Source: Telopea speciosissima
Taxonomy: Eukaryota; Streptophyta; Magnoliopsida; Proteales; Proteaceae
Assembly: GCF_018873765.1 (NCBI RefSeq)
Contig: NC_057920.1
Span: 8,135,307-8,199,306, forward strand
Length of the DNA: 64,000 bases
Reading direction: 5' to 3'
Made by a program: the position numbers and the translations under genes. Under the pieces are notes generated by a model. The model did no database searches. It saw only the letters and a list, made by a program, of their open reading frames with translations, and was not told the origin of the DNA. Positions 3,301 to 62,200 of the stretch are shown one piece after another (position 1 is the stretch's first letter; each line of letters starts with the position of its first letter).

Positions 3301-4432
3301 ATGACTAGCAAAGCCAGTACATATCGCCCAATACGGGCAATACGATACCGATACGTAAAACCATGATCTAAAGGGATGGACAGGTGGTCATTTCACTGTC
3401 CCCTGTGAGAGGGCGTAGGGGCAGTCCCCCCCCCCCCCTCCCCATCTGAATCAGCTGTAAATTTAAAAAACATCACATTTTTTTTTGGCCGATACTATAC
3501 TTAACAATATCGAGCATGACCTACAACATAGATACCGATCCCTAAAACCATACGTGAGCATGGTTTGAGGAATCAGTATCATATCGTCCGTATCGTGCAA
3601 TACGTATTGGTTTTGCAAGTGATTGATCCCGATACGATTGATCTGTATCGATATCGATCCCCGATACCATATCGGTTGGATGGCCACGCTCTTATCATTT
3701 TCCCAAAACATAAACATAAACATAAATTAAGGAAGGAAATAGGAATTAAGGAAGTTAAAACCTGGAAGTAGTCCTTGTAGAAACGATGAGGTAAACGGAA
3801 GTTCTTGTACATGCCGAGATTAAGAAGGGTTTTCACACCTTCAACTGACGTGGGCAGTAACATCTCTGAAGACGACGAGAATCCCAACCGACCCGTTACC
3901 TTACGACTCATTGACTCCGTATAGGCTGAGACCGAACCTGAAACCACCAGAGACTTCACCATGTGTTGGTGTAGCTCCGCCATCTTGAACGCCACCATTC
4001 CACCGTAACTGAATCCCACCACCGTGCAGGTGTCCACTCCTAACTTCGTCAGTCCCTTCACAAGGCATTCGGCTTGAAACTCCGGTGACCGGTCAGTTTT
4101 GCTGGTCATCGAACCTCCGAAAAATAGAAGGTCTGGAACGTAGACAGCGTACTTCTTTAAGAGTGGTCCCACCTGAAACTGCCACGTCATTAGACCTTCA
4201 GCAGCAAAGCCATGTAACAATACCACTGCAGGCTTCTTTGCTTTCTTCTTCTTCTTCTGGTTCTTCTCCTCTTCCTCCTCCGGATCTACCTTCGCCTTCT
4301 CTTTCTTAGTGGTCTCAAATGGAGCCCAAAATTTCATGGTTGTCCCAGGCTCGATCTCCACCATCTGGGTTCTCAGACCAGCAAGCTTCATTAGCCCATG
4401 CAACAATGACTTCTCTATTGTCACAAAGTTCA

Positions 4433-4436
<4 letters not shown>
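392..4436 (-). CDS. Plant alpha/beta hydrolase (ABHD6/monoacylglycerol-lipase-like), 3' end outside window
   Basis: Serine hydrolase of the alpha/beta fold; substrate unknown, probably a lipid or other ester. Exon 1 is 3762-4436 (225 codons), exon 2 is 860-958 (33 codons), exon 3 is 392-459 (68 nt, ends in phase 2 at a GTACGT donor). All borders are GT/AG and the frame is kept throughout. Visible motifs: oxyanion loop HGF at residues 75-77, PDLLFFGGS near 101-109, nucleophile elbow GFSYGG with Ser143, and in exon 3 LLWGENDQIF, which carries the likely catalytic Asp. The catalytic His should lie in a last exon to the left of base 1; I do not find it in 1-391. A Lys/Glu-rich stretch at residues 44-68 is an unusual low-complexity insert, and exon 2 encodes a five-Ser run from an AGC repeat. 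Intron 1 is about 2.8 kb and full of repeats. Close to the plant family that includes Arabidopsis At4g36610 and At2g18360 (from memory). Confidence 0.85.
1186..1532. repeat. Direct duplication inside hydrolase intron 1
   Basis: A unit starting TTCCGACGACTTG and ending in AAATTCTAGG occurs at about 1186-1338 and again at about 1408-1532. The two copies are separated by about 70 bases and differ by small indels. The unit contains no ORF I recognise. Confidence 0.85.
1573..1686. repeat. Tandem repeat, 57-bp unit, two near-identical copies
   Basis: Units at 1573-1629 and 1630-1686, each starting GTGCAGTTTTGGGCAAG. They are followed by a run of G. The array lies within hydrolase intron 1. The near identity implies a recent duplication. 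Confidence 0.9.
2314..2454. repeat. Foldback (inverted-repeat) element in hydrolase intron 1
   Basis: The left arm (GAGCTCCTCTTCAGCG onwards) matches the reverse complement of the right arm (CGCTGGAGAGGAGTC); both arms also share the CAGCGCACAT and GATCCACA blocks. About 140 bases, no coding capacity; a MITE-like palindrome. Confidence 0.75.
2698..2731. repeat. G-rich simple repeat
   Basis: Repeated GGGGGGA units ending in a longer G run, within hydrolase intron 1. It could form a G-quadruplex, but nothing else supports a role. Confidence 0.8.
3151..3364. repeat. Foldback MITE with CATGGTTTTA...TAAAACCATG ends (copy 1)
   Basis: Starts CATGGTTTTAGTGCACGG and ends ACGTAAAACCATG; the interior is rich in CGATACCGATA-type palindromic words. 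The same end and interior style recurs at 3480-3690, 4943-5183 and 9497-9701, so this is a family. It lies in hydrolase intron 1. Confidence 0.7.
3480..3690. repeat. CATGGTTTTA-family MITE remnant (copy 2), just inside intron 1
   Basis: Contains CCTAAAACCATA near 3541 and CATGGTTTGAGG near 3559, back to back, with CGATA-rich interior. Probably the abutting ends of two related elements. It lies about 70 bases downstream of the exon 1 donor of the hydrolase. Confidence 0.6.

Positions 4437-4475
<39 letters not shown>
4436..4475. repeat. (GA)n microsatellite in 5' UTR of the hydrolase gene
   Basis: About 20 uninterrupted CT units on the plus strand, read as GA on the coding strand, touching the hydrolase start codon. 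GA/CT tracts are common in plant 5' UTRs and core promoters; length changes here would alter the leader directly before the ATG. Confidence 0.9.
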
Positions 4476-4479
<4 letters not shown>

Positions 4480-4662
4480 CTGAATCCGAATAAATAAACT
4501 CCACTAACTCTGACTTGCCCTTACTCAAAGCAAACTAAAGGGAATTGAGGTCCCTGGAGAGAGGAGCCAGATCCAAAGTCTTATGGCTTACTTATTTAGT
4601 GCTCTCCAATCCTGACACCTCAAGTCTTTTGTGATGTTGATTGGGCCAAACAATGAATTATT

Positions 4663-4942: not shown

Positions 4943-5183
4943 CATGGTTCTAAGTATCAGTATCGTATTGGGCAATATGTACTGGTTTTACTAGTCAACG
5001 ATATCGATACTGTATTAGTAGCACAGTACCGACAAGGGGTAAAATGGTTAGAAAACTCATTTTTTAAAGGAAATTCAGGAATAATTTTATCCAATATAGT
5101 CGATCCAGGTTGATACCATATCGATATTGTATCGGTTTTGCATATTGCCGATACCCGTTTCAATACCGTGCACTAAAACCATG
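4943..5183. repeat. CATGGTTTTA-family MITE (copy 3)
   Basis: Starts CATGGTTCTAAGTATCAG and ends GTGCACTAAAACCATG, with ATCGATATCG-rich interior. Same family as 3151-3364. Confidence 0.7.
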
Positions 5184-5351
5184 AAAGTCATTGCTAAATC
5201 TGTGATGTGATAATATTAGTGCATATTGAATAGAGAGATTGCACTAGAATGCCTTAATCCTGAATGGTTAGGCCATTTTTCATCTAAAAAATAATAAAAA
5301 AAGAATGGTTAGGCCATTGTATTTATGAGAATGGATCATCTGCATGTATTA

Positions 5352-5463: not shown

Positions 5464-6085
5464 GGATTTTAATCCTCTCCATTTCTAGATCCATTATTTC
5501 CTATTATTTCCCCCTCCAGAGTACGTGCGACACGTGGCAGTCTTCAATCCAATGGCTTTAAATCATTCTCTTATTTTTAAGTAATAAACTAACTATGGTT
5601 ACCCAAACCCAGAACCTAACCCGGGTCAAGATTAACCAAACCATACTAAATCCATGGTTAATTCAAACCGAAAAACACCCAACCCTAATCTCATCGTGTC
5701 TCTCTCTCCTATGCCCTCATTGCTCAACGAACAAAGAAGCTCAACGAACAGAGAACGAGAAGCTGCCGCTGTCGCTGTTCAAGTTTACTATTCATGCATC
5801 ACTATTCATGTGACACTATTCATAGCTACTGTTCACGTACTGCCGTATTTTCTCCAGTTTTCTTTGCACACAGGTTTCGCACTTTTTCCAACAAAAACAA
5901 TAGGCGCAGTAATCAGATTCAAAAAAAGAAATAAACAGTTTCAGAAAACTGAGAATTTAAGAAGTTGAACTAAACTAGGATTCTTGAAATCGTTGTGGTT
6001 TTGGAAACTAAACAGAATTGAAAACTTGGGGGGTATATTATTCGACATTGAGATACAGTGTAACAGGGAACCAATACTTGAGTTA
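5464..6085. other. Gene-free stretch
   Basis: AT-rich DNA with short open frames only. None shows a recognisable domain, and no repeat ends were found. Confidence 0.5.
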
Positions 6086-59200: not shown

Positions 59201-62200
59201 AAGATTTAGGAGGATGAAAATAGACAAGGCACAAGGCCCAAATGAGATCCCAATAGAAGTATGGAAGAGCTTAGGAATATGTGGTTTATCTTGGCTAACA
59301 AAGCTGTTTAATAAGATTATGAGCACGAGGAAAAAGTCAGATGAATGGCGTAGAAGCATCATGGTTCCGGTTTACAAAAATAAAGGTGATATTCACAGCT
59401 GCAATAACTATAGAGGCATAAAACTAATGAGCCATACTATGAAATTATGGGAGAGGGTTATTGAAACCCATTTGAGACAAGGAACTACTATTATGGAGAA
59501 CCAGTTTAGATATATGCAAGGAAGATCCACGACGGAAGCTATTTACCTAATTAGGAGACTTATGGAAAGATTTAGAGAATGCAAGAAGGATCTCCATATG
59601 GTCTTTATTGACATAGAAAAAACTTTTGACAGAGTCCCTAAAGAGTTAATCTAGAAAGTACTAGAGAAAAGAAGTGTTTCAAGTAAATAAGTGGACATAA
59701 TTAAAGATAGGGCAAATTTCACGGACACCCCCTATAACTATTCGAAATGATAAGGACACCCTAAATTTTGTCAAAATGTCACAGACACCCCTGACGTTAA
59801 GCACAGTTAGTACCCAAAGGTGAAATATCCATTTTACCCCTTAGTTATTTAAATAAAAAAGCTGTCATTTCATCTTCTTCCCTCTTCTTCCATATTCTTA
59901 CCGTTTTGGAGAACTGCTGCAAATCCATTTTGGGCTAACAACCATCAATCCAATAGACCTTGTAAACGGCGAGGTGAGCCCAAGGAGCCATCCCAGCAGC
60001 GATGCCACTCGCGTAACCCAAAGTGGAGGCAAACCAACAATCAATTAAGTACAGTCACTGATAAGTTGAAATCTCTAGTAAAAATCTCAAACTTAAGCTT
60101 CCAGTGAATAAAGAAAGAACAAATGCAAATCAAACCTGAACAACAACCCAAAACCTTAAATTTTTAGAACTTAAAAAAAAACTCAGGGGAGGAGAAATTT
60201 CATCACATTACCACAATCCACCAAATGATGGAGAATTAAAATGAAAAATCAAGCCAAAATGATCAAAAGTAAAGTTTAGCAAGTAAATTACCTTGAATCT
60301 TGTAATGAGTCTTTCTCGTGGTAGGGTTGATAATCGAAATAGACTTCCCTGAAGATGATTTTTTCCACTCACCATCGGAGTAGTACTTGAAGACATCACC
60401 GTTTAAGATACCTAAAAACACTTCAGTCCCCCATCATTCTCGATGGTTCAAAGAAGAAAACAGAAATTGATGTCGGAGAACCTAATGAAGTGGATGAATG
60501 GAGATTATCGGAGGGAAACTGAAGCGACCCACAGCAAGAAGCGAGTGGATCTCTGCTCTTTAAGAATCAGCTCTTCACTATGATTGAAGAAGGCCTTAAC
60601 TAGAAAATCTCTGAAGCACGTCCGTTTCAGCGACGGCAAGACGTTTCCATGATTCAACTTCCACTACAGAAAATTTACTGGAAAGGGAAGGTGAGGGAGG
60701 AATCAAAAAGATTTTGCAGATGGATTTGAGGGAAGATTCGTACCAGGAACTGAGGGGATCGCATGGTTTGGAGATGGTGGACTTGTTCAGGAATGACGGC
60801 GAATACGTCGATGACATCTTGGTGCCACACCATCTTCGTCCCAAGCTCCAGCATGGGAAGCTTTCAAGTCAGAAGACTCCGGGGATTGGGAAACATTTGG
60901 AACAAATTTTTTTTTTACGGTGTGGATGTTCTTCCCTCTCACGCCTCAGAGCATGAAAATCGGTCAATAATGGCATCTATTGCAGGTGGAGGAATTCTCT
61001 GTTCTTGCTTCTTCCATCTTCAGCCAAGCGAAAACGATGAAGAAAATCTGGTTTGTATTTGGGATATTGGGGATTTAACCTTAAGGGTATAATAAGAAGT
61101 TCACCCTATGGTAAGGGTAATTTCGCCATTATAAAAGAGTTAACAGCCACTTAACTACACAGACCTAACGGAGTGGACTAAGTTGAAATAAAAATATAAA
61201 ATAAGGGTAGACTGTGATATTTTTTCAAAATTTAGGGTGTCCTTGTCATTTCGAATACTTAGAGGGGGTGTCCGTGAAATTTACCCTTAAAGATATATAT
61301 GATGGTGCGGCGACAAATGTAAGAACTATGGGGGGCCAAGGTAGTGAATTCCAAATTATAACTGGGTACATCAAGGACCAGCTTTAAACCCTTATTTGTT
61401 TGTGCTTATCATGGATGATTTAACCAGAGAAATTCAAGATGAGGTTTCTTGGTGTATGCTTTTTGCGGACGATATTGTTGTGGTAGATGAGAAAATAGCA
61501 GGGATTAATACCAAGTCAGAGTTACGGAGATCAGCCTTGGAATCAAAAGGTTTTAAGATAAGTAGAAATAAGACGGAGTATATGATGTGTAACTTTGGTT
61601 ACACTAGGATGGATAGACGGATAATGAGGTAGTGAAAATTGATGAGAGTGAGATTCCGCAAAGTAATTGTTTTAGGTATCTTGGCTTAATCATAAAAAAA
61701 GAAGGTGATATAGAGGATGATGTTTCACATAGAATTAAAATAGGATATACCGAATAATAGATTCCAAACAGCTATGATGTATGGTGCGGAATGTTGAGTA
61801 GTTAAGAAGCATCATCTAGATAAACTCAATGTAGCGGAGATGGGGATGTTGAGATGGATGAGTGGCAAAACTAGGAAGGATAAAGTAAGGGTAACGAATG
61901 ATCATATTAGAGCTGGTTTGGGAGTAGCTTCGATACATGATAAGCTACGAGAAAGTAGTTTGAGGTGGCACGGCCATGTTCAACGGAGGCCTTTGAATGC
62001 CCTAGTACGGAGGAGTGATTCGATTCAGATTGAAGGAACTAAAAGAGCTAGGGGCAGACCTAAAATGACCCTAGGAGAAGTGGTGAGGAAAGACATGCAG
62101 AGCTTAGGCCTTGTATCAAGTATGACCTTGAATAGAGCTGATTGGAGGGCAAGGATCCATGTATCCGACACCATTTAGTTGGGATAAGGCTTAGTTGTTG

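Follow-up and report, generated by a model that had tools for sequence, protein, structure and literature searches.

A Multicopy Pack-MULE of Telopea speciosissima with a Mosaic of Host Fragments and a Legible Assembly History

Rice Pack-MULEs can capture sequence from two or more genes. In the available parts of PMC3310237 and PMC8277862, the Pack-MULEs of rice, tomato, Arabidopsis, and maize appear as elements with long TIRs, a TSD of 9–11 bp, host gene fragments, and several copies, inside which no transposase was found. The counts given in the accessible text of PMC3310237 are 2,853 for rice, 46 for Arabidopsis, 220 for tomato, and 276 for maize, and the accessible portion of the review PMC13317346 reports over 3,000 for rice, some with chimeric transcripts; the first-pass annotation of the element described here had held those that fuse parts of two genes to be known mainly from rice, which these counts bear out in part. 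In the tomato PM-ZIBP family, one captured fragment was amplified while the terminal regions differ, and the TIRs are tandem (PMC3310237, in part). The animal Pack-TIRs, discussed in terms of gap filling or FoSTeST, have short pieces with 1–36 bp microhomology at the breakpoints and are multicopy far from their parents (PMC8277862, in part). The way in which Pack-MULEs take up gene pieces is under debate, with gap filling, fork switching, and neighbouring ends as the candidates in the consulted parts of PMC13317346 and PMC8277862.

The element presented here lies in a window of 64,000 nucleotides (the whole stretch of DNA analysed). It agrees with the plant Pack-MULEs in its long TIRs, TSD, host gene fragments, and several copies, and in that no transposase was found inside. 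Its family differs from them in that a single genome still contains several relatives with parts of the mosaic, and in that a block was probably captured second-hand in inverted form and ends were probably exchanged. It resembles the animal Pack-TIRs in its short pieces, microhomology, and multiple copies far from the parents; unlike them, it is a plant MULE with several source loci and with one gene represented by four pieces. As in PM-ZIBP, a captured fragment was amplified and the terminal regions differ, whereas the ends in the window family are replaced rather than tandem. Second-hand capture between Pack-MULEs was not recognised in literature titles and abstracts, a scope that several core papers fall outside, and no priority is claimed. 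The window element belongs to a known kind, but its assembly history is unusually legible: donors, partial relatives, and recombinants stand side by side in one genome and some changes are polarised by the donors, so that the sequence of steps is readable and need not be guessed.

The element spans 59710–61286, where the first-pass annotation had placed it correctly to about a base, and is a 1,577 bp non-autonomous Mutator-like element sited within a LINE. Its features are as follows:

59701–59709, no strand: left TSD TTAAAGATA, an exact match to 61287–61295, with an empty site in LINE copies
59710–59889, plus strand: left TIR (about 90 bp) and subterminal region, from the inverted-arm match and the left-end comparison
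59936–60031, minus strand: subtilase piece 1, coding (L042 3500–3595, 92%)
60031–60465, minus strand: GAPN fragment with part of intron 1, splice donor, exon 1, and 5'UTR (nearest donor L043 5029–4519)
60460–60518, minus strand: subtilase piece 2, 316–376 bp upstream of the donor ATG (L042 4672–4732, 92%)
60519–60555, no strand: segment F, shared with the element L046
60556–60673, no strand: piece of an unnamed C11 locus (L047 3195–3312, 88%)
60674–60717, no strand: MULE subterminal segment H, followed directly by the right end in L044, L045, and L046
60718–60746, minus strand: subtilase piece 3, coding (L042 4146–4174, 28 of 29 bases identical)
60743–60826, minus strand: subtilase piece 4, coding (L042 3936–4019, 89%), with a CCAG overlap with piece 3
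60828–60917, plus strand: ANTH/AP180-like fragment (L048, 93% over 89 bp; L049, 89% over 70 columns)
60949–61286, no strand: right end module with TIR (61197–61286), 92–95% identical in the mosaic-free elements L057–L061
61287–61295, no strand: right TSD TTAAAGATA, an exact match to the left one, with the empty site

The TIRs are about 90 bp long, and the arms 59709–59799 and 61197–61287 are complementary at 86% over 91 nt, which together with the exact 9 bp TSD bears out the long inverted ends and exact duplication described earlier. Among 200,000 random 9-mer pairs from the nearby flanks, 2 were equal. When the flanks were joined with a single copy of the duplication, the query matched LINE copies across the join in 40 of the 40 scored (out of 2,928 candidates), at 87–90% identity. 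Inspection by eye suggests that the flanks are two parts of a LINE reverse-transcriptase region. The TIRs, TSD, and empty site rule out a Helitron or a segmental duplication. The 21-mer TIR pattern GGGNAAATTTCACGGACACCC occurs at 390 genome sites (178 + 212) and its reversed control at 0, so the ends of the window element belong to a large family.

The longest ATG ORF of the element has 109 codons. The five longest (59–109 aa, out of six ORFs of at least 40 aa) gave no Pfam match above the cut-off and one below it (E 0.3); within these ORFs there is no transposase gene, in line with the lack of transposase already remarked on. No autonomous element with the TIRs of this element was found in an unsystematic comparison of TIR sites with transposase loci that covered 150 scored of 827 candidate MULE transposase domains and 100 of the 390 TIR sites. 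With its long TIRs, a TSD in the range of 9–11 bp, an empty site, host gene fragments traceable to donor loci, and copies at different sites, the element is a Pack-MULE, as had been proposed.

The cargo consists of fragments of three identified genes and of a fourth locus. The first-pass annotation had recognised two host fragments, GAPN and subtilase, in the same orientation. Both fragments are real and both lie on the minus strand, but two was too few and the ANTH fragment lies on the plus strand; what had been seen did not extend to subtilase pieces 2 to 4, the ANTH fragment, the piece from C11, or the further copies of the element. The parent genes, for which a genome search had been recommended, were found for GAPN and subtilase on chromosomes other than that of the window.

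The GAPN donor, L043 at C2:58.62 Mb, matches the fragment at 85% over 418 columns and at 89% over 44, including exon 1, the splice donor, and the intron start that had been read from the sequence; the window fragment is without about 54 bp of the donor intron. A second locus, L051 on C11, is a weaker match (82%). A retroposed origin of this piece is ruled out by the retained intron sequence. Exon 1 of the donor alone has no Pfam match, and its next exon matches Pfam Aldedh at 1.7e-16 (the first exons of the donor being those examined). Searched against PDB, the 37-residue GAPN piece gave aldehyde dehydrogenases in 17 of 20 matches with E of 1 or less (best 0.0057); two antibody chains and one agarase, at E 0.6–0.9, made up the rest. 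Judged from plant sequences, the gene is presumably GAPN and not another aldehyde dehydrogenase.

All four subtilase pieces match L042 at C7:66.61 Mb, the 832-codon ORF of which has Peptidase_S8 (8.5e-49), fn3_6, Inhibitor_I9, and PA domains; the block noticed originally is piece 1. The translated subtilase piece matched subtilisin-like proteases in 3 of 3 PDB matches (best 0.0003), so that the protein search recovered the expected families from both intervals. A Pfam scan of 59700–60029 with stops as X gave nothing, but the frame read was the wrong one. In the element, the pieces are arranged by L042 position as 3500, 4672, 4146, and 3936, an order that leaves a single collinear capture followed by deletions unsupported. 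The 29 bp piece 3 is weak alone (genome-wide E 7.4e-4) and partly similar to the MULE subterminal sequence of the same spot; a chance match is unlikely because the piece comes from the same gene as the others and shares the CCAG overlap with piece 4. A second subtilase-like locus, L050 on C9, was rejected as the donor of pieces 3 and 4, since its identity (82–93%) is never better than that of L042, though for piece 4 in the C2 copy the two hardly differ (90.4 vs. 90.5%); it has no match to pieces 1 and 2.

Of the two ANTH loci, the closer match L048 looks degenerate, and L049 has an open ORF with an ANTH domain at 3.1e-29. The C11 locus L047 is left unnamed because a 317-codon ORF near its captured part has no Pfam match. 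No source was identified for 59890–59935, 60519–60555, and 60918–60948. The donor-type loci L042, L043, and L047–L051 have no element-end match at E 0.01; the right ends of some elements match L049 weakly (73–75%) at 5641–5721, about 2.2 kb from the ANTH part, and this donor may have a MULE nearby. A TIR-core scan of five donor loci found none, which is a weak control, since the true copy L003 was missed as well. At about 3599–5255 of L047, L046 matches in opposite orientations, which suggests a different MULE beside the C11 donor; the ORF enclosed there presumably resembles isochorismatase.

All mosaic pieces are present in five elements: the window element and the copies on C2, C1, C11, and the unplaced contig C346. 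Their K2P distances are 0.047 between the window and C2 copies, 0.084–0.093 among the C1, C11, and C346 copies, and 0.101–0.125 between these groups. In the window and in C2 (there within an A-rich stretch), the TSD is exact over 9 bp; that of C346 has one mismatch in 9 bp and that of C11 one in 8 bp, and none was found for the C1 copy. The location of five copies at different sites points to mobilisation by transposition. The C1, C11, and C346 copies retain a longer subtilase piece 1 (L042 3456 to 3595 or 3596).

The partial relatives allow parts of the assembly to be ordered. In L044 and L045, longer pieces of the C11 locus are followed by H and directly by the right end, and L046, the left end of which was not located, has subtilase piece 2, F, the C11 piece (26 bp in BLAST), and H, again with the right end directly after. 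Because H is joined directly to the right end in these three elements, subtilase pieces 3 and 4, like the ANTH module, were probably added to the mosaic later, and the subtilase gene would have been sampled at least twice. Precise secondary loss from L046 is the less likely alternative, given the same contiguity in L044 and L045. The 90 bp ANTH piece probably arrived with the right module, since ANTH is followed by this module both in L052 (539 bp of ANTH) and in L053 (about 88–104 bp); the left end of the ANTH-bearing L052 element was not located, and L053 is without a TSD. The element L054 retains the donor intron 5166–5242, which is absent from the five whole-mosaic copies, and the present subtilase–GAPN junction, with its 1 bp overlap at 60031, may for this reason be a deletion scar. 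The other junction overlaps are CCAG at 60743–60746 and, at 60460–60465, an exact AGAA within 6 bp that have one mismatch to the GAPN donor.

Exchange between elements is indicated by L055 and L056, which have exact 9 bp TSDs within AT-only runs and in which the block 60424–60824 is inverted relative to their own ends. This chimeric block of about 400 bp joins pieces of three donors. It is 97.7% identical between L055 and L056, so one event may explain both, and it is 96.5–97.5% identical to the window/C2 pair and 93.1–95.4% to C1, C11, and C346. At the sites specific to the pair (vs. C1, C11, and C346), L055 and L056 have the window/C2 state in 6 of 6; judged by the donors this state is derived at 60451, 60569, and 60737, the 1 bp insertion at 60428 is missing from the donor, and 60528 and 60698 are unpolarised. 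Since L055 and L056 share these changes, the block was most likely acquired second-hand from the window/C2 lineage once that lineage had separated from the other copies. The same shared states would also result from the reverse event, in which an L055-like element converted the window/C2 pair.

The ends of the five copies are discordant with their core. Of the 57 fixed differences that separate the pair from C1, C11, and C346, 40 lie at or before 59935 (hand count), and against C1 and C346 alone 44 of 66 differences fall within 202 of 1,490 columns (hypergeometric p 1e-24, which assumes independent sites), the left block taking in 59890–59935, where the two groups may be non-homologous. The right end has few pair-specific sites, 4 of them within the 26 columns at 61233–61258. 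In the right-module tree (13 rows, omitting L044–L046, L055, and L056, which are 69–78% identical to the window there), the window and C2 copies group with the mosaic-free L057–L061 (100/97), apart from C1, C11, C346, and L054. The left-end tree (14 rows) places C1, C11, and C346 together with L054 and L052a (100/100); it separates the window side from the C1/C11/C346 side at 94/93, just below the 95 mark. Judging from these trees, the window/C2 ends belong to a different subfamily than those of C1, C11, and C346, and modules evidently move between elements.

The explanation that we favour, and regard as probable, is that of a multicopy Pack-MULE with passive cargo, the mosaic of which arose stepwise through template-switching capture and through exchange of blocks and ends. 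A Mutator-type transposase supplied from elsewhere would move the element. Its pieces would have been captured at the DNA level by template-switching repair of breaks, a mechanism suggested by the short non-collinear pieces, the three small overlaps, and the captured intron. Blocks already captured, together with ends, would then have been exchanged among elements of the same large family, for which the shared pair-specific changes and the discordance of ends and core argue. The cargo would consist of remnants from three or more host genes and from one other locus that are not maintained as a gene. As blocks can pass second-hand, gene captures counted per element overstate the direct captures from genes.

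More tentatively, and less probably than the above, chimeras may arise mainly through inter-element capture and end swaps, with the fragments already carried steering later repair to the same donor. If so, blocks captured from host genes pass as modules from backbone to backbone, and the steering would explain the at least twofold sampling of the subtilase gene.

It is rather unlikely that the pieces were acquired without template switching, through mis-paired ends of neighbouring elements and subsequent internal deletions. This is the model published for Arabidopsis Pack-CACTA elements (review PMC13317346, in part), and a small element in L052, which carries subtilase piece 1 and GAPN intron immediately left of an ANTH-bearing right end, is consistent with it; deletions alone are, however, insufficient to place 29–96 bp subtilase pieces in the observed donor order. 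Less probable still is a plain Pack-MULE, each element of which took its pieces directly from genes: the donor loci exist and match at 85–97% per piece, but independent capture would not yield the pair-specific states, including the 1 bp insertion, that L055 and L056 share in a block of three donors, and the discordant ends also count against it. An expressed young chimeric gene under selection, formed from GAPN exon 1 and the subtilase block, is scarcely credible, since the retained splice donor and 5'UTR and a GAPN start open for 57 codons in C1 and 56 in C346 (2 of the 5 copies, both reading into the intron) are set against a frameshift at this start shared by the window and C2, a stop in C11, a mean pairwise divergence (p) of 0.053 in exon and intron alike, and variable exon sites of 7, 3, and 2 by codon position (37 positions each), a comparison of few sites and low power. 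Neither the exon–intron comparison nor the codon positions of the five copies, at this low power, give a sign of selection on the cargo; the GAPN/subtilase/ANTH cargo looks passive, and a functional form of the chimeric transcript that the first-pass annotation thought conceivable finds no support.

Several other features of the relatives were recorded. The small L052 element (1889–2538) has 650 bp and an exact TSD, AAAAATTTT; its TIRs enclose subtilase piece 1 and GAPN intron, and it resembles a deletion derivative. In L054, a Ty3-type gag-protease fragment (RVP_2, 3.2e-33, 4184–4594) lies between the subtilase and GAPN pieces, the regions concerned being 4184–4594 and 3526–4134. In L046, the subtilase upstream sequence begins directly after the apparent end of another MULE, GAAAATTTCCC, an edge that might show the way in which this piece was first acquired. 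L057 (2218–2613), L060 (1280–1675), and L061 (1145–1531), which carry the right module of the window, have a common open frame of 129–132 codons; it may represent the beginning of a host gene, and the L057 frame has no Pfam match. Finally, the locus L068 (C2:18536900–18541500), inspected as a locus with one of its ORFs scanned by Pfam, has a similar TIR pair 4.4 kb apart around an ORF at 327–824 with a C2 domain (Pfam C2, 8.5e-16), and is perhaps another Pack-MULE of the window element's family.
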